Shown here piece by piece: positions 11,981 to 64,000 of a DNA stretch of 64,000 nucleotides (positions are counted from its first letter, which is position 1; every line of letters begins with the position of its first letter). This DNA is from an alpha proteobacterium BAL199. GTDB lineage: Bacteria; Pseudomonadota; Alphaproteobacteria; Thalassobaculales; Thalassobaculaceae. Both the position numbers and the translations under genes were made by a program. The DNA lies in assembly GCA_000171835.1 (NCBI GenBank), contig ABHC01000004.1:186001-250000 (forward strand), written 5' to 3'. Below the pieces are notes generated by a model, which was not told where the DNA came from, did not search any database, and saw only the letters and a program-made list of their open reading frames with translations.

Positions 11981-12427
11981 TCAGGCTCGGCTGCTGGGGA
12001 TGTTCTGTTCGTCTTCCTCGGCCTGTAGCTCCAGCGCTTCCATCTCGTCGTCGGAATAGCCGTAGTGGTGGCCGATCTCGTGGATCAGCACGTGCCGGAC
12101 CACGTGGTACAGGTCGTCACCGGTCTCGATCCAGTAGTCGAGGATCGGCCGGCGGTACAGGAAGATGCGATCAAGGTCGGCCGGAGTCTCACCGGTCGAA
12201 CGGTGCCCCAGCGGCACGCCCTGGTACAGCCCGAGCAGGTCGAACGGCGTTTCCAGGTCCATGGCCTCGCAGGTCTCGTCGTCTGGAAATTCCTCGACCA
12301 AGATCGCCAGGCCGGCGATCGGCTTCAGGAGATCTTCCGGCACACTGGACAGCGCATCTTCGGCCAACGCCGCCAGATGGTCGGCGGTCGGGGCCAGGAT
12401 GCCGGGTCGGGTGGATTGCGCACACAT
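11981..12427 (-). CDS. Zincin-like metallopeptidase family protein
   Basis: A 148-residue protein of the small bacterial metallopeptidase family once called DUF1025. The zinc site is visible as HEIGHHYGYSDDEME at about residues 119-133 (HExxH plus a downstream acidic residue). Preceding it are the family segments FDLLGLYQGVPL and RIFLYRRPILDYW. No substrate is known for this family, and it has no signal peptide, so it is predicted to be cytosolic. The gene is followed by the cyclophilin gene about 100 bp downstream on the same strand. Confidence 0.86.
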   Translation of the reverse strand: MCAQSTRPGILAPTADHLAALAEDALSSVPEDLLKPIAGLAILVEEFPDDETCEAMDLETPFDLLGLYQGVPLGHRSTGETPADLDRIFLYRRPILDYWIETGDDLYHVVRHVLIHEIGHHYGYSDDEMEALELQAEEDEQNIPSSRA

Positions 12428-12570
12428 ACCGGCAGCTATAGCGGCTTATACCGCGGCGCGAAAGAGATGGGTGCGAAACGGGACGGCAGGCTTGGCGGGC
12501 TCCGGCCCCAGGGGCGGTGCGACATCCGGTATCGGCGGTGTTGCTCCGCCTTGGCGGCGTGCAAATATGG

Positions 12571-12580
12571 TGCACTGCAA
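12571..12580. promoter_or_regulatory. Candidate PhaR-type (TGCA-rich) operator upstream of bdhA
   Basis: The sequence TGCACTGCAA, with a further TGCA 11 bases upstream, lies about 58 bp before the hydroxybutyrate dehydrogenase start. TGCA-rich boxes of this kind occur in front of polyhydroxybutyrate genes of Alphaproteobacteria bound by PhaR. The motif match is by eye; binding is inference. Confidence 0.35.
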
Positions 12581-12637
12581 TGTCATCAGGGCCGGTTTCC
12601 GTTCAGGAGCCGGCGAATGCAATCGGAAGGAACCGAG

Positions 12638-13423
12638 ATGAGCCTCAAGGGCAAGGCCGCGATCGTCACCGGGTCGACCAGCGGCATCGGAGAGGGTATC
12701 GCCGCCGCACTGGCCGCTGCCGGCGCCGACATCATGCTGAACGGCTTCGGCGACGCCGCCGCGATCGAAGCGCAGCGTGTGGGCCTGGAGAAGACGCACG
12801 GCGTTCGCGCCTCGTACTCGTCGGCCGACATGTCCAAGCCCGACCAGATCAAGGCGATGGTCGCCGATGCCGAGAAGGCCTTCGGCAAGGTCGACATCCT
12901 GGTGAACAACGCCGGCATCCAGACCGTCGCGGCGATCGAGGAGTTTCCCGACGACCGCTGGGAACTGATCCAGGCGATCAACCTGTCGTCCAACTTCTAC
13001 GCCATCAAGGCGGCGATGCCGGGCATGAAGCAGCGCAACTGGGGGCGGATCGTCAACATCGCCTCGGCGCACGGGCTCGTCGCCTCGCCCTACAAGGTCG
13101 CCTACGTCGCGGCCAAGCACGGCGTGGTCGGCCTGACCAAGGTGGTGGCGCTGGAGACCGCGCAGATGAACATCACCTGCAACGCCATCTGCCCGGGTTT
13201 CGTGAAGACCCCGCTGGTTGAAGGCCAGATCGGCGACCAGGCGAAGGCCAACAACATGTCTGAGGAACAGGTCGTGCGCGACGTGATCCTGGCCAGCCAG
13301 CCGTCGAAACGCTTTGTCGGCATCGATGAGCTCGGCGCACTGACGGTGTTCCTGTGCGGCGATCAGGCGTCGTCGATCACCGGAACCTCGCTGTCGGTCG
13401 ATGGAGGCTGGACGGCGCGATGA
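12638..13423 (+). CDS. bdhA: 3-hydroxybutyrate dehydrogenase (SDR)
   Basis: The 261-residue classical SDR interconverts (R)-3-hydroxybutyrate and acetoacetate with NAD, the step that feeds polyhydroxybutyrate breakdown products into acetyl-CoA. The cofactor motif TGSTSGIG, the structural NNAG, the catalytic Ser in IASAHGLVAS and the YVAAKHG Tyr/Lys pair are present; the family-specific CNAICPGFVKTPLVE and C-terminal DGGWTAR strongly match BdhA. The ATG at 12638 has GGAAGGA upstream. Its stop overlaps the start of the patatin gene by four bases (ATGA at 13420-13423), so the two were translationally coupled before the IS insertion. Confidence 0.93.
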   Translation: MSLKGKAAIVTGSTSGIGEGIAAALAAAGADIMLNGFGDAAAIEAQRVGLEKTHGVRASYSSADMSKPDQIKAMVADAEKAFGKVDILVNNAGIQTVAAIEEFPDDRWELIQAINLSSNFYAIKAAMPGMKQRNWGRIVNIASAHGLVASPYKVAYVAAKHGVVGLTKVVALETAQMNITCNAICPGFVKTPLVEGQIGDQAKANNMSEEQVVRDVILASQPSKRFVGIDELGALTVFLCGDQASSITGTSLSVDGGWTAR

Positions 13424-13694
13424 GCGCCGACAAGGCTAGCGACCCCGAGCCCGATGCCAAGCCGAGCGACGATCCGGCACAGCAGGAAGCGCATGTTCCG
13501 GGGCATCTTCGCGAGGAGGCTGCCGCCGCCGCCGAGCCCGGGCGCCGTCAACCCAGGCCGGTCGAACCAGACACCGTCAAGACCCTGAACCTGGCGCTGC
13601 AGGGCGGCGGGTCGCACGGCGCATTCACCTGGGGCGTGCTGGACCGCCTGCTGGAAGACGACCGTATCGAGTTCGACTCGCTGTGTGGCACTAG
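13420..13694 (+). pseudogene. Patatin-like phospholipase (DUF3734), 5' part, split by IS
   Basis: The first 275 bp of a patatin-like gene. It encodes an Ala/Pro-rich leader, then the oxyanion loop GGGSHGAFTWGVLDRLLEDD and the approach to the nucleophile, SLCGTS. The reading frame runs into the IS5-family element at the Ser codon. Joining this part to 15008-15896 (removing the IS and one CTAG) gives exactly 388 codons and restores GTSAGAMNA, the G-x-S-x-G motif with the catalytic Ser. Patatin/DUF3734 genes commonly follow bdhA in Alphaproteobacteria, which suggests a role in storage-lipid or membrane-lipid turnover. In this strain the protein should be inactive. Confidence 0.95.
13691..13694. 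repeat. Left target-site duplication (CTAG) of the IS5-family element
   Basis: CTAG directly abuts the left end of the IS and is repeated at 15004-15007. It fits the YTAR target preference of IS5-group elements. Confidence 0.93.
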
Positions 13695-15003
13695 CAGGCT
13701 GCGGAAAAAAGGGCCTGCCATCAGGCGTGACGTGGTGATTCACTGTTCCGGCGGGTTTCAGCCGGAGAATGAGGATGCGCGGTTCGGACGATCGGAGCGA
13801 GGGGCTTTTCAGCTACGTGAGCTGCGAGGCGCGGGTGCCGGCGGGCCATCCGCTTCGGGCGATCCGGGCGATCGTCGACGAGGCTCTGGAAGTCCTGTCG
13901 GCTGAGTTCGAGGGGCTGTACGCCCGGGTCGGCCGGCCGTCGATCGCACCGGAGAAGCTGCTTCGGTCGCTGTTGTTGCAGGCGTTCTACTCGATCCGCT
14001 CGGAGCGCCAGTTGATGGAGCAACTGGACTACAACCTGCTGTTCCGCTGGTTCGTCGGGCTGTCGATGGACGCGGCGGTGTGGGACGTGACGGTGTTCAC
14101 CAAGAACCGCGAGCGGCTGCTGGCTGGCGACGTCGCGACGAAGTTCCTGGCGGCGGTACTGGGCCAGCCGCGAGTGGCGGCGCTGCTGTCGGACGAGCAC
14201 TTCTCGGTCGACGGCACGCTGATCGAGGCTTGGGCCAGCATGAAGAGCTTCCGCGCGAAGGACGGCAGTGGCCCCCCACCGGGGCCGGGGCGCAACGGCG
14301 AGCGCGACTTCCACGGCGAGAAGCGCTCCAACGAGACCCATGCCTCGACCACCGATCCCGACGCCCAGCTGTTCCGCAAGAGCCGGGGCCAGGCGGCGAA
14401 GCTGGCGTTCATGGGCCACGCGCTGATGGAGAACCGCCATGCCCTGGTGGTCGACGTGCGGCTGACGGCGGCCACCGGCACTGCCGAGCGCGAGGCGGCG
14501 GTCGCCATGGTCGAGGCGATCCCCGGCCGTCACCGCATCACGCTCGGCGCCGACAAGGCCTACGACACCCGCGACTTCGTGGCCGCGATGCGCGAGCTCG
14601 CGGCGACCCCGCACGTGGCGCAGAACACCGCCAACCGGCGCTCGGCCATCGACGGTCGCACCACCCGCCATCCCGGCTACCTGGTCAGCCAACGGATCCG
14701 CAAGCGGATCGAGGAGGTGTTCGGCTGGATCAAGAGTTCCGCCGGCCTGCGCAAGACCCGCCATCGCGGCATCCGGCGCGTCGGCTGGATGTTCACCCTG
14801 ACCGCCGCCGCCTACAACCTGATCCGGCTGCCCAAGCTGCTCGCGCCGACGTAGCCGACGCCCGGAATCCGACCAGCGTCCCGGGAAACGCGCCTCGGAA
14901 TGTCGAAACTCCGGTCCCAGACCGGCAAATCTGGCGAATAGATCCTGAAACCAAGCTCAGGCGGAACCCCGCCGACAATCTCGACCAATTCTTCCGCAGC
15001 CTG
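13695..15003 (+). mobile_element. IS5-family insertion sequence, 1309 bp, complete
   Basis: A complete element bounded by terminal inverted repeats beginning CAGGCTGCGGAA (13695-13706 and, inverted, 14992-15003) and flanked by a 4-bp CTAG duplication. It carries one intact transposase gene in the same direction as the disrupted patatin gene. The perfect duplication and the intact transposase indicate a recent insertion, probably still mobile. It lies in the codon of the patatin nucleophile serine. Confidence 0.95.
13769..14854 (+). CDS. IS5-family transposase
   Basis: The 361-residue transposase is uninterrupted. The DDE triad is visible as Asp148 (FSVDGTLIEA), Asp262 (LGADKAYDT) and Glu315 within the R-x3-E-x6-K signature (Arg311 to Lys322, RKRIEEVFGWIK). 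The N-terminal part (GHPLRAIRAIVDEAL, RPSIAPEKLLRSLLLQAFYS) is the usual DUF772-type DNA-binding region of the IS5 group. It starts 74 bp inside the left end; an alternative ATG lies six bases downstream. Coding in one frame without programmed frameshift is as expected for this subgroup. Confidence 0.95.
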   Translation: MRMRGSDDRSEGLFSYVSCEARVPAGHPLRAIRAIVDEALEVLSAEFEGLYARVGRPSIAPEKLLRSLLLQAFYSIRSERQLMEQLDYNLLFRWFVGLSMDAAVWDVTVFTKNRERLLAGDVATKFLAAVLGQPRVAALLSDEHFSVDGTLIEAWASMKSFRAKDGSGPPPGPGRNGERDFHGEKRSNETHASTTDPDAQLFRKSRGQAAKLAFMGHALMENRHALVVDVRLTAATGTAEREAAVAMVEAIPGRHRITLGADKAYDTRDFVAAMRELAATPHVAQNTANRRSAIDGRTTRHPGYLVSQRIRKRIEEVFGWIKSSAGLRKTRHRGIRRVGWMFTLTAAAYNLIRLPKLLAPT

Positions 15004-15007
15004 CTAG
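15004..15007. repeat. Right target-site duplication (CTAG) of the IS5-family element
   Basis: Second copy of the 4-bp target directly after the right inverted repeat; see 13691-13694. Confidence 0.93.
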
Positions 15008-15896
15008 TGCCGGAGCGATGAACGCCGTGGTGTTCGCCGCCGGCTGGGCGGAGAACGGACGGACCGGCGCGCGTGAACGCCTGGACCGATTCTGGAACCG
15101 GATTGCCGATGTCGGTGCAATGAGCCCGATCCAGCGCACGGTGATCGACACCCTGATGGGCAACTGGCGGATCGACAACTCGCCCGGCTACCTTGCGCTC
15201 GACCTGATGGGGCGGGTGCTGTCGCCGTATCAGACCAATCCGCTGAACCTCAACCCGTTGCGCGACGTGCTGGAGGAGGTCGTGGACATCGACCTGGTCC
15301 GCTACGCCAGCGGGCTGAACCTGTTCCTGTGTGCGACCAACGTGCACAGCGGCAAGGTCAAGGTGTTCGACAACAAGCAGCTGTCGATTGACGCGGTGAT
15401 GGCGTCGGCCTGCCTGCCGTTCATGTTTCAGGCCGTTGAGATCGGCGGCGAGCACTATTACGACGGCGGCTACATGGGGAATCCGGCGCTGTTCCCGCTG
15501 GCCTACAACTCCGACTGCCGCGACGTGCTGATCGTCCAAATCAATCCGCTGTACCGCAAGGAGGTACCGACCAGCGCCCGCGACATCCTCGATCGGGTGA
15601 ACGAGATCACCTTCAACTCGTCGCTGATGCGCGAGATGCGAGCGGTGCATTTCGTCAACCGGCTGATCGCCGGCGGCAAGCTGGATCCCCAGGCCTACCG
15701 CATCACCCGAATCCACATGATCCAGACCGACGGCGAAATCGCCGCCATGCACGCCTCCTCAAAGCTCAATCCCGAGCGGATGTTCTTGCATCACCTGCGC
15801 GACATCGGCCGGCGGGTTGCCGGTGAGTGGATCGACGCCCACCTGCACTGCGTCGGTGTCGAGTCATCGGTGGATGTGCGGGGCACATTCCTGTGA
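15008..15896 (+). pseudogene. Patatin-like phospholipase (DUF3734), 3' part, split by IS
   Basis: The remaining 889 bp of the disrupted gene. It begins with AGAMNAVVFAAGWAENG, the residues that follow the catalytic Ser, and holds the second member of the dyad in YYDGGYMGNPALFPL (Asp of the DGG motif). The C-terminal third (SLMREMRAVHFVNRL, then SSKLNPERMFLHHLRDIGR) is the DUF3734 extension. A Met at 15018 could start an N-truncated protein, but it would lack both the oxyanion loop and the Ser. Total restored length is 387 residues, normal for the family. Confidence 0.95.
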
Positions 15897-16025
15897 ACTC
15901 TGCCCGCAAGGGTAAAGTTTGATGGATTTCAAGCCGATCGAGCGTTACCCTCATGTCCACTGCACAGTCGAGCTGTCGCCGACGTGGTATCAGTCTCGCT
16001 CGCCGAACGGACTGAAAGGAACGCA

Positions 16026-17573
16026 ATGACAGCCGGCCGGATCCTCATGGTCACCGTGCTGCTTGGTCTCGCGGCTGCTGCTCAGCCCGGTACGGCAGGA
16101 GCAGCTGGAACTGCGTTAACGGAACAAACGTCGATCGTGCGGGAGTTCCAGAAGGCTCGTGCCGACGAGTATGTGTGGACCGAACCTCAGGAAACGCCGG
16201 CTCTTAACGATCGGGGCCGGGCAATCCTATCGGTCCTTCGCAGTGCCCAGCGCGAGGGCCTGGTCGCCAGCGACTACCGCTTGCCGTCGACGGACGACCG
16301 CTTGTCGCTGGAACACGCGCTGTCACTCTCACTCCTGCGGTTCCTGACGGATCTTCGCTCGGGGCGTTTGGCGCCGCACGAGGCCGATCCGGATCTTTTT
16401 CAGGAGCGGCATTTGGTCGATGGTAAGCAACTGCTGTCCCAGGTGGCCGACGCAGACGATCCGGTTCGCGCGATCGAACAGGCCGGGCCTAGCAATCCGA
16501 TATACCACCGGCTCCGCCGGTTGCTCGCCAATTATCGCGGACTGGCCGTTCATGGAGGCTGGCCCTCGGTTCCTGTCGGCGATGCGCTCAAGCCGGGAAT
16601 GCGGGACCCGCGAGTGGCCGCGATCCGCACACGGTTGATGTTGAGCGAGTCCCTGACCCTGACGTCGGACGATCCGGAATTCTATGATGACGGGTTCGGC
16701 CTGGCGATGCGCGGCTTTCAACGCCGCCACGGCCTGGAGGACGACGGCGTCGTCGGGACCAGGACGCTGGCCGCACTGAACGTGCCGATCGAGCATCGGA
16801 TCGAGCAGATCGTCGTCAACATGGAGCGGTTTCGCTGGATGCCGGACGAGTTCGGCGATGACCACGTCTTCGTGAATCTGGCGGATTTCATGCTCGACTA
16901 TGTCCGTCGCGGGCTTGTCGCGATGTCCATGCGGGTGGTTGTTGGGCGCCAGTACCGGGAGACTCCGGTGTTCAGCGATCGCATTCGCTATCTGGAATTG
17001 AACCCGACCTGGACCGTGCCGGCGAAGATCGCCAGCGAGGACTTGCTGTCCAAGATCCGGGCAAATCCGTCCTACCTGTCGTCGGCCGGGTTCGAGGTGT
17101 TCGCCGGTTCGCGGGACAACGCAACGCTTATCGATCCGGCCTCCGTGGACTGGTCGAGCCTTGCCAAGGGCCGGTTCCCCTACACGCTCCGCCAGCAGCC
17201 AGGGCGTCAGAACGCGCTGGGTCGGGTGAAGTTCATGTTCCCGAACCGATTCGACATCTATCTGCACGACACGCCCGCGCGGGAGTTGTTTCGGCGATCG
17301 GTCCGCACATTCAGCTCTGGCTGCATTCGATTGGAGAAGCCCCTCGATCTGGCCAGTCGGTTGCTGGTCGCCGACGGACAGGATCCCGATCGGATCGGGT
17401 CGGTGTTGGAATCGGCAAAAACCACCCGCATCAACCTTAGAGAACCGGTCGCCGTGCATCTCACCTACCTCACAGCGTGGGTCGGAGAAGGCGGAACGGT
17501 CGAGTTCAGAGACGACGTCTATGGCCGTGACGCTCTCCTTGCCAAGGCTCTCGGGCTCGGTGACAGTTCGTGA
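16026..17573 (+). CDS. L,D-transpeptidase with peptidoglycan-binding domain (YcbB/LdtD-like)
   Basis: The 515-residue precursor has an N-terminal export signal, a long N-terminal scaffold, a PG_binding_1 segment (FQRRHGLEDDGVVGTRTLAAL at about residues 230-250) and a C-terminal YkuD domain. The catalytic motif is complete: His414 in HDTP and Cys433 in SSGCIRL. Such enzymes form 3-3 cross-links in the periplasm. The ATG at 16026 with AAAGGA upstream is preferred over a start at 15984 that would precede the signal peptide. The M15/DUF882 gene follows 82 bp downstream, the same pairing as ycbB-ycbK in E. coli. Confidence 0.9.
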   Translation: MTAGRILMVTVLLGLAAAAQPGTAGAAGTALTEQTSIVREFQKARADEYVWTEPQETPALNDRGRAILSVLRSAQREGLVASDYRLPSTDDRLSLEHALSLSLLRFLTDLRSGRLAPHEADPDLFQERHLVDGKQLLSQVADADDPVRAIEQAGPSNPIYHRLRRLLANYRGLAVHGGWPSVPVGDALKPGMRDPRVAAIRTRLMLSESLTLTSDDPEFYDDGFGLAMRGFQRRHGLEDDGVVGTRTLAALNVPIEHRIEQIVVNMERFRWMPDEFGDDHVFVNLADFMLDYVRRGLVAMSMRVVVGRQYRETPVFSDRIRYLELNPTWTVPAKIASEDLLSKIRANPSYLSSAGFEVFAGSRDNATLIDPASVDWSSLAKGRFPYTLRQQPGRQNALGRVKFMFPNRFDIYLHDTPARELFRRSVRTFSSGCIRLEKPLDLASRLLVADGQDPDRIGSVLESAKTTRINLREPVAVHLTYLTAWVGEGGTVEFRDDVYGRDALLAKALGLGDSS

Positions 17574-27906: not shown

Positions 27907-28482
27907 ATGCGTGGATACTTTGGAATTGGGGCGGAAGAGATCTCCAAGGCGATGAACGTCGCTGCGCTGATGCGGACCGCCCATGCTTTTGGCGCCAGCT
28001 TCGTGTTCTCGATCGGCAGCGTGCGCGCCGGGCATGAATGGGGCCGGGTCGACACCTCTGACGCGACCGGCAGTCTGCCCTACTATCCGTTCGACGACCC
28101 GGATGCGGTGATGTTTCCCAAGGGCTGCGAACTGGTCGGGGTGGAAATCACCGACGAAGCAGTGCCCCTGCCGAGTTTCCATCATCCACGTCGAGCCGCC
28201 TATGTGATGGGGCGCGAGCGCGGCGCGCTGTCGCCGGAACTCCTGTCGCGCTGCGACCATGTGGTGCGGATTCCGTCGCGATTCTCGATCAATCTGGCGA
28301 TCGCCGGGGCGATGGTGATGTACGACCGGATGCTGTGCATGGGCCTGTTCGCACCACGGCCCCACCGGCCGGGTGGACCGGTGGAGCCGGTTCCGATGCC
28401 GCAGTTCGGCCCGCCGCTGTGGGAGAAGAAGGAACGCAAGCGCAAGGCTCGGGCGACGGCGGCAGTGCGAGACGGCCTCTAG
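27907..28482 (+). CDS. SpoU/TrmH-family RNA 2'-O-methyltransferase
   Basis: A 191-residue protein with the SPOUT knot core: N-terminal motif KAMNVAALMRTAHAFGA with the catalytic Asn and Arg, motif 2 YVMGRERGALSPELL and motif 3 VVRIPSRFSINLAIAGAMVMYDRM. It would methylate a ribose 2'-OH in tRNA or rRNA. The C-terminus carries a Pro-rich and Lys/Arg-rich tail likely to bind RNA. The gene is divergent from the asparaginase gene, with 69 bp between starts. Its stop lies in a CTAG followed by CAGGCTGCG, which resembles the end of the IS5-family element. Confidence 0.87.
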   Translation: MRGYFGIGAEEISKAMNVAALMRTAHAFGASFVFSIGSVRAGHEWGRVDTSDATGSLPYYPFDDPDAVMFPKGCELVGVEITDEAVPLPSFHHPRRAAYVMGRERGALSPELLSRCDHVVRIPSRFSINLAIAGAMVMYDRMLCMGLFAPRPHRPGGPVEPVPMPQFGPPLWEKKERKRKARATAAVRDGL

Positions 28483-28574
28483 CAGGCTGCGTCCAGTCGC
28501 AGGTCTTCTGGATTGACCGCGCGCTTCACCGCCCGCCATCCTGTTCAGGCAGGCCGGAACCGGAGGGATCGCCG

Positions 28575-36416: not shown

Positions 36417-37090
36417 CTACTGGCGGGTGGCAAACGGAATCGTTCCATCGATGTCCTCTTGCACGGCGGCAAGCGGGAATATGATGCTGACGGTCGTGCC
36501 CTGGCCGGTCTCGCTCTGGATATCAATCACGCCGCCATGCAGGTCCATGAAACGACGCACCAGCGGCAGACCGAGCCCGGCGCCCTCATAGCTGCGACCG
36601 AGGCCGGAGTGTAGCTGTGAGAACGGTTCGAACGCTGACGAAATGTTCTCGGCCGGCATACCGATCCCGTGATCGATCACTTTGAGGCCAGTCCCAAGCG
36701 CGGTCTCCAGGAATTCGATGATCACTTCAGAATCCGGATTGGAGAATTTCACCGCATTGCCGACGACGTTGAGAACGACCTGCCGAAGACGCTGCGCGTC
36801 GGCGTGGATCGGTGGCGCGTTGAATGGAACATCGTTGCGCAGGGTGATGTTGGCCTCGTTGGCGCGTTGGCGCAGCAGTCGAATGCAACTGTCGACCATG
36901 CCGTGTGCGCCGATTGCTTGGATATCGATGTCGATCTTGCCGGCCTCGACCCGCGTGATGTCGAGGATGTCGTTGATCACACCCAGCAAATGCTCGCCGC
37001 TCTGCCGGATGTCCCGTGCGTAACCCGCATAACGCGCGCTCAGCGGACCAAATCGTTCCTCGGCCATCAGGTCGGAAAAGCCGATGACGG
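36417..37090 (-). pseudogene. Sensor histidine kinase, C-terminal remnant truncated by IS6-family element
   Basis: The surviving part runs from just after the H-box (PVIGFSDLMAEERFGPL) through the second helix of the dimerisation domain (QSGEHLLGVINDILDITRVEAGKIDI) to a complete HATPase domain: N-box VVGNAVKFSN, G1 DHGIGM and G2 EGAGLGLPLVRRF. The phosphorylatable His and all sensory domains are missing, cut off by the IS at 37091. A Met at 37067 could start a 216-residue ATPase-only protein, but it could not autophosphorylate. The frame enters the IS directly. Confidence 0.93.
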
Positions 37091-37906
37091 GGTGTTGTCA
37101 CGTTAACTCGTCGAGTTAGCAAGTTGGCATGCCGGTCGTTGATCAAGCGGCATGTGCCGCGGATTTCCAAGCTTCGAACGCTTCGAGCCGATGGTAGCGA
37201 ATGGTGAGGGCGGAACGACGGCGGGCTGGGACAGAGTAACGATTGCGGGTTGCGGATTGCATAGACACGAAGCGTTGTAATCCACCCGGTGATCGGAAGC
37301 CTTGCATCACCCGCTCTCGTTTTCGGAAGGGCAAGTGGCTGTTCTCGGCGCGGTTATTGAGCCCCTTGTGTGACCAATGATCAAGGCCAGGCGCGACCTC
37401 GCGCTTGGCGGCCCCATATGAGCGCAGTTTGTCCGTAATGATCCTTTTGGGCACGAAGCCCCAACGTTTCATCAGCTTGATCAAAAGCCGCTTTGCAGCG
37501 CGCTTGTCTCGCTTCGATTGTAAGATTTCCTCAAGAACGACACCGTGTTGGTCGACGGCGCGCCACAGCCAGTATGACCGGCCCGCGATCTTCACGACGA
37601 CTTCGTCCAGATGCCAAACATCACCAGGGCGAGGCTGCCGTCGCCGCAGAACGTGGGCGATCCGGGGACCGAACTTGACGGTCCAGCGCCGGATCGTCTC
37701 ATACGAAACGTCCACACCACGTTCCAGCATAAGCTCCTCGACCTCGCGCAGGCTCAAGTTGAACCGGGCGTAGAGCCAGACAACATGAGAAATGATCTGA
37801 GGCGGAAAGCGGTGGCGCTTGTAGCTGATTTTCTCTGTTTGCATCGACACCGCCTACGCCCGGATCATTGAACCCGCAACCTCAGGCACGTTAACGTGAC
37901 AACACC
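37091..37906 (-). mobile_element. IS6-family insertion sequence, copy 1, 816 bp, complete
   Basis: The element is bounded by 17-bp terminal inverted repeats GGTGTTGTCACGTTAAC at 37091-37107 and, inverted, 37890-37906, and has one transposase gene on the minus strand. Length is typical for IS6/IS26 elements. The 8-bp flanks differ (GATGACGG on the left, GGTATAGT on the right), so there is no target-site duplication; the element joins two unrelated gene fragments. A second copy in opposite orientation begins at 63462. Confidence 0.95.
37143..37844 (-). CDS. IS6-family transposase, copy 1
   Basis: The 233-residue transposase has an N-terminal helix-turn-helix (SLREVEELMLERGVDVSYETI) and the DDE core: Asp80 in WHLDEVVV, Asp138 in IITDKLRSYG and Glu167 in NNRAENSHLPFRKRER. 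It is unbroken and so potentially active by the replicative cointegrate route of the family. I use the ATG at 37844 with TAGGCGG upstream; an overlapping GTG at 37850 would add two residues. Confidence 0.95.
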   Translation of the reverse strand: MQTEKISYKRHRFPPQIISHVVWLYARFNLSLREVEELMLERGVDVSYETIRRWTVKFGPRIAHVLRRRQPRPGDVWHLDEVVVKIAGRSYWLWRAVDQHGVVLEEILQSKRDKRAAKRLLIKLMKRWGFVPKRIITDKLRSYGAAKREVAPGLDHWSHKGLNNRAENSHLPFRKRERVMQGFRSPGGLQRFVSMQSATRNRYSVPARRRSALTIRYHRLEAFEAWKSAAHAA

Positions 37907-63461: not shown

Positions 63462-64000
63462 GGTGTTGTCACGTTAACGTGCCTGAGGTTGCGGGTTCAA
63501 TGATCCGGGCGTAGGCGGTGTCGATGCAAACAGAGAAAATCAGCTACAAGCGCCACCGCTTTCCGCCTCAGATCATTTCTCATGTTGTCTGGCTCTACGC
63601 CCGGTTCAACTTGAGCCTGCGCGAGGTCGAGGAGCTTATGCTGGAACGTGGTGTGGACGTTTCGTATGAGACGATCCGGCGCTGGACCGTCAAGTTCGGT
63701 CCCCGGATCGCCCACGTTCTGCGGCGACGGCAGCCTCGCCCTGGTGATGTTTGGCATCTGGACGAAGTCGTCGTGAAGATCGCGGGCCGGTCATACTGGC
63801 TGTGGCGCGCCGTCGACCAACACGGTGTCGTTCTTGAGGAAATCTTACAATCGAAGCGAGACAAGCGCGCTGCAAAGCGGCTTTTGATCAAGCTGATGAA
63901 ACGTTGGGGCTTCGTGCCCAAAAGGATCATTACGGACAAACTGCGCTCATATGGGGCCGCCAAGCGCGAGGTCGCGCCTGGCCTTGATCATTGGTCACAC
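63462..64000 (+). mobile_element. IS6-family insertion sequence, copy 2 (cut by window edge)
   Basis: Starts with the same terminal repeat GGTGTTGTCACGTTAAC at 63462-63478 and continues for 539 bp, as far as the window goes, with no difference seen from copy 1 read in the opposite direction. It is inverted relative to copy 1. The 8 bp before it are GATGGAGC. The right end is outside the window. Confidence 0.94.
63524..64000 (+). CDS. IS6-family transposase, copy 2, N-terminal part
   Basis: The first 159 codons, including Asp80 and Asp138 of the catalytic triad, match copy 1. The rest is beyond the window. ATG at 63524; GTG at 63518 is an alternative. Confidence 0.94.
   Translation, partial: MQTEKISYKRHRFPPQIISHVVWLYARFNLSLREVEELMLERGVDVSYETIRRWTVKFGPRIAHVLRRRQPRPGDVWHLDEVVVKIAGRSYWLWRAVDQHGVVLEEILQSKRDKRAAKRLLIKLMKRWGFVPKRIITDKLRSYGAAKREVAPGLDHWSH

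Follow-up and report, generated by a model that had tools for sequence, protein, structure and literature searches.

In a 64,000-base-pair (bp) stretch of the genome of the marine alpha proteobacterium BAL199 (contig ABHC01000004.1, here contig C66 of genome G000, positions 186001–250000; hereafter the window), a patatin gene overlapping bdhA, the gene for 3-hydroxybutyrate dehydrogenase, is split by an IS5-family insertion sequence of 1309 bp. The best overall explanation, to which we assign a probability of roughly 0.7, is a recent insertion at a CTAG target in a probably dispensable gene, possibly of the type of PhaZh1, a polyhydroxyalkanoate (PHA) depolymerase of Haloferax. What is new is that the genome's two members of this patatin subfamily are each cut by a different element, and that a further genome of the genus lacks such a gene. 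Each insertion is of a known, ordinary kind; the parallel loss is the unusual and mildly interesting part.

The element occupies 13695–15003, between the 5′ part of the patatin gene at 13420–13694 (275 bp) and its 3′ part at 15008–15896, all on the forward strand. The cut between 13694 and 13695 separates the first two bases of the Ser92 codon from the third, and the element is flanked by two copies of CTAG on the same strand, at 13691–13694 and 15004–15007. When the element and one CTAG are removed in silico, the two parts join into 388 codons (387 residues and a stop) without an internal stop, reproducing the coordinates and arithmetic of an earlier note on this DNA. The empty-site product contains GGGSHG from residue 62, GTSAG at residues 90–94 with Ser92 as the nucleophile, and DGG from residue 244, and the insertion separates the glycine-rich loop (residues 62–67) from Asp244 as well as from the remaining base of the Ser92 codon. 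Because matching ends, a 4-bp duplication and the exact restoring of a family motif coincide, the split of the patatin gene by the element goes beyond chance.

Both parts match Pfam Patatin, the 5′ part on residues 58–91 with an E-value of 4.3e-6 (27.5 bits, 0.2 bits below the cut-off of 27.7) and the 3′ part with 5.6e-9 (36.9 bits, above that cut-off). Relatives of the 3′ part are encoded by 108 of 132 candidate stretches. Two NCBIfam labels for the 3′ part were rejected, those of a CBASS phospholipase (21.5 bits against a cut-off of 200) and of the Dot/Icm effector VpdC (20.8 bits against 1000), both scores being far below. An ATG at 15018 is a possible start of a 292-residue fragment, which would contain neither the glycine loop nor the serine. 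A promoter scan over 12400–16200 found none.

The ends of the element read CAGGCTGCGGAAAAA on the left (13695–13709, forward strand) and CAGGCTGCGGAAGAA on the right on the other strand (14989–15003), alike in 14 of 15 bases with the first 12 identical; its terminal repeats are given by CAGGCTGCGGAA. Between them, an open frame at 13769–14854 on the forward strand encodes a transposase of 361 residues with DUF772 and DDE_Tnp_1, which scores 275.3 bits against NF033581 (IS5_4; cut-off 140). The transposase profile, the terminal inverted repeats and a 4-bp duplication of the CTAR type together place the element in the IS5 family, as the earlier note had proposed, while its transposition activity is putative, the frame being intact. 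The nearest named relative is ISAzs10. Identity to ISAzs10-like elements of the IS5 family on Azospirillum plasmids is 84.2% at the DNA level, over positions 80–1181 of the query only, and these matches are annotated as ‘IS5-like element ISAzs10 family transposase’.

All copy numbers given for the element are minima, as 40 of 204 first-look candidates were scored in BAL199 and up to six candidates per genome in 60 related genomes. Among the matches listed, the element is complete once in its own genome, beside one truncated copy (95% identity, contig C54) and two distant relatives at 73–74%, and the best matches listed from the 60 related genomes reach 74–75%.

The target was resolved by comparing element ends at 29 loci, some places being represented twice. 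Six elements are complete with a CAG-type end, namely that of the window and five relatives, and the remaining end pairs, which have no such end, were judged to be chance. The duplication is CTAG in four and CTAA in two of the six (three and two among the five relatives alone), bearing out the CTAG target claimed earlier. Since CTAA flanks two relatives of the element on either side, the duplication is 4 bp long, and a 2-bp duplication of TA was ruled out. Likewise, E. coli IS5 has a 4-bp target with CTAG the commonest, 15 of the 24 sites listed in the portions available of the report (PMC5493358).

The earlier note also stressed the hit in the serine codon. The position is exact, but nothing about it calls for a special cause, because the gene offers CTAG at two places and the complete elements of this kind are flanked by CTAG or CTAA. 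The empty gene, 1164 bp long, has one CTAG at the serine codon and its sole other, unused one at 13436–13439 on the forward strand; the serine codon is thus one of two available targets. In the empty window as a whole, CTAG is found 21 times against 46 expected from trinucleotides.

The gene was compared with the best 80 of 108 relatives (L005–L084), to which all counts of 80 refer. Relatives of the 3′ part are led by a Rhodospirillaceae metagenome-assembled genome (87% identity), followed by Thalassobaculum litoreum (71%) and others. The serine elbow, which the earlier note had recognized in GTSAG, stands at the aligned position in 79 of the 80, and the 80th (L056) has ATSAG elsewhere in its own frame. 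Two other genomes of the genus came up in the search. G002 has an uninterrupted orthologue, open and beside bdhA, with a 3′ part 87% identical. G001 (99% complete) has a bdhA 92% identical and no Patatin match at all, and its frames after bdhA differ from patatin, as judged from the reading frames and not by a family search. The three genomes of the genus therefore comprise one with an intact gene, one without the gene and one with both copies broken, and a split, decayed gene is not the common state of the close relatives.

Against G002 (L005), the 3′ part has a synonymous divergence (dS) of 0.436 and a ratio of nonsynonymous to synonymous divergence (dN/dS) of 0.189, with no stop gained, and bdhA has similar values (dS 0.387, dN/dS 0.132). 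Both flanking frames are open, the duplication is perfect and the transposase is intact. Together with the intact orthologue in the genus, these agree with the earlier view of a recent event, and on the scale of species divergence the insertion is very probably recent.

The second patatin of the subfamily lies on contig C64 (about 152323–155088; L125:3824–6589) and is likewise split, its pieces being 53% and 47% identical to the first copy. The interruption is a 1577-bp IS1182-type element (NF033551, 291.6 bits, cut-off 270), and removing it with one CACG gives an exact empty site and a complete patatin. An initial delimitation of 1579 bp with a 2-bp duplication was replaced by 1577 bp with 4 bp, as the terminal bases vary among copies. 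Over 372 positions the restored copy and the first share 51.6% identity, and in a tree the two fall in different clades, so the second did not arise by recent duplication; the placement of its closest neighbors is not firm (86/82). The two elements are different yet distantly related, since their transposases share DUF772 and DDE_Tnp_1.

Unlike the IS5-family element, the IS1182-type element is abundant in the genome. With 40 of 108 candidates scored, the element was found near-complete at least 28 times and split once, the copies being nearly identical (identities given as 100%), and of the 28, which have both ends, 26 show perfect 4-bp duplications.

We weighed whether the two losses are unrelated, neutral by-catch in a genome rich in mobile elements. 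The genome does contain many such elements, with DDE_Tnp_1 matching 79 times (75 above the cut-off) and rve 63 times (13 above it). However, of the 29 IS1182-type copies only 5, among them the one in copy 2, are inside a frame whose third-position G+C content is 0.75 or higher and that extends at least 40 codons both ways. That the same pair would be struck a second time has a chance of about 0.2–0.5%, a post hoc figure that takes a rough guess of 10–30 broken genes among about 5,700. Unrelated by-catch comes close to an even chance in our judgment. That the patatin activity is dispensable in the genus is rather likely, because a different, spreading element cut the second gene and a further genome of the genus is without a patatin, while classical PhaZ genes remain.

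As for function, the intact patatin may have acted as a PHA depolymerase that passed its product, 3-hydroxybutyrate, to BdhA. The dehydrogenase gene at 12638–13423 on the forward strand is intact, encoding 261 residues that score 371.6 bits against TIGR01963 (cut-off 307.05), and it shares ATGA at 13420–13423 with the patatin start, an overlap noticed earlier. In 38 of the 80 relatives, a BdhA match ends 100–1000 bases upstream of the patatin stretch on the same strand. A further set, L086–L104, was inspected and left uncounted, as it partly holds the same genomes again and 10 were skipped for orientation.

A similar arrangement is found in Haloferax mediterranei, where a patatin and a BdhA-like dehydrogenase are adjacent, the dehydrogenase first. 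This patatin is 38.0% identical to copy 1 over 305 positions and 37.0% to copy 2. Its neighbor scores 222 bits against TIGR01963, below the cut-off, unlike the BdhA of the window. The H. mediterranei patatin has G16, S47 and D195, which we take to be the essential residues of PhaZh1, and all three features (glycine loop, serine and aspartate) are retained in both broken copies. Given these residues, the GTSGG box and the dehydrogenase neighbor, the H. mediterranei patatin is probably PhaZh1. As described in the portions available of two reports, PhaZh1 is located on PHA granules, hydrolyzes granules in vitro, contains a GTSGG box and is encoded beside bdhA (PMC7137286, PMC4823750). MEXAM1_RS07150 of Methylorubrum extorquens, a bacterial PhaZh1 homologue (30%), is suggested to act in polyhydroxybutyrate (PHB) mobilization in the part available of another report (PMC6520949). 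The broken gene may have made a PhaZh1-type depolymerase handing 3-hydroxybutyrate to BdhA, a tentative assignment that we place a little below even odds.

Several points weigh against this assignment and the explanation that includes it. In the tree, PhaZh1 stands outside an 84-row clade holding both copies (support 100/100, long branches), and the copies are therefore relatives of PhaZh1 and at most candidate orthologues. Patatins also act on phospholipids. In 42 of the 80 relatives, including the Halomonadaceae and Nitrincola rows, bdhA is not seen just upstream, two of them having little upstream DNA. For the 3′ part, dN/dS rises to 0.21–0.37 when the orthologue is more distant, and the value for the 5′ part is unreliable at 49–63% identity. 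Co-occurrence of the subfamily patatin with PHA synthase (PhaC) is weak, at 10 of 11 versus 14 of 26 genomes (p = 0.057, with kinship and genome size uncontrolled). This comparison used the 37 genomes common to all searches with limits of our own choosing, counting patatin at E <1e-40, PhaC at <1e-100 and any PhaZ match, fragments included.

The patatin could accordingly have been a phospholipase or another lipid enzyme, with its adjacency to bdhA historical and its loss unrelated to PHB. The loci at which bdhA is not seen fit this alternative, and the parts of the literature searched gave no experiment on the patatin clade. On the other hand, bdhA is the neighbor at 38 loci and a BdhA-like dehydrogenase accompanies the patatin in Haloferax. 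The three of the 37 genomes that have PhaC and no PhaZ all carry the subfamily patatin, which is suggestive (p = 0.059). A lipid enzyme is possible, at odds that we put well short of even.

A strong storage phenotype from the loss is doubtful, because two classical PhaZ frames and one class I PhaC remain open in the genome. Outside the subfamily the genome also has an unbroken patatin (C67), and there is a weak match below the cut-off (C59). The earlier note expected a change in hydroxybutyrate or storage-lipid metabolism. This expectation is doubtful, since the two PhaZ frames remain and, in the portions available of PMC7137286 and PMC4823750, knockout of phaZh1 in Haloferax left PHA mobilization without a significant change.

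A broader proposal is that bdhA–patatin pairs form a widespread, unannotated bacterial module for PHB mobilization, which was selected against in this genus through the IS5-family hit, the IS1182-type hit and gene loss. A possible reason would be that the module is costly or superfluous beside two classical PhaZ. We regard the proposal as unlikely. In the portions of the literature searched, no experimental role was found for the pair in bacteria, and the search gave no paper describing a PHB depolymerase gene interrupted by an insertion sequence. Still, an ordinary insertion-sequence knockout is useful here as a natural double mutant of PhaZh1-like patatins. The genus trio (both copies broken, gene absent, gene intact) offers a ready comparison of PHB mobilization with and without the enzyme, and the case points to the gene pair shared by those 38 relatives.

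On the preferred explanation, the IS5-family element evidently transposed into CTAG and thereby broke a bdhA-linked patatin gene that was otherwise intact and that precise excision could restore. It is a different matter whether the element is an on/off switch, whose precise entry and exit at the serine codon would produce phase variation of the enzyme. The intact duplication and transposase would allow it, E. coli IS5 left a CTAG site at fucAO-fucPIK precisely according to the portions available of PMC5493358, and IS1301, also of the IS5 family, is described in partly available literature as switching siaA in meningococci. The element of the window instead lies inside a coding sequence, and no excised junction or second allele was seen in the one genome of the species. 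The elbow CTAG, formed here by the codons ACT AGT, occurs in none of the 80 relatives, meaning that no switch site is conserved. According to the portions available of PMC9038732, ISAba13 of Acinetobacter gave no revertant when 2.8 x 10^5 colonies were grown in rich medium; a few arose on old lawns, and reversion was consistent only next to polymyxins. A switch is thus very improbable.

That the insertion was aimed at the 12-bp perfect palindrome GGCACTAGTGCC in which it sits is hardly credible, because at the sites of the five remaining complete elements nothing palindromic extends past the duplication (one of six has such a palindrome), even though the insertion site is the only one in a 12-bp palindrome among all 21 CTAG in the empty window, the next longest being 8 bp.

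Other traces of mobile elements were noticed. The truncated copy of the IS5-family element on C54 (L126:2535–3245) has CTAG after its right end and lies about 140 bases from a tRNA-Ala gene. At 28479–28491 of the window, CTAGCAGGCTGCG equals the outer end of the element with no remainder; as a lone element end it may be a chance match, since only these bases are in common. An rve-type transposase of 235 residues occurs at 37143–37850 and at about 63734–63958 of the window, with 46 equal-scoring matches in the genome, each below the family cut-off. At 37143–37850 it adjoins a histidine-kinase-like frame at 36417–37067 (read by eye), which it may cut.

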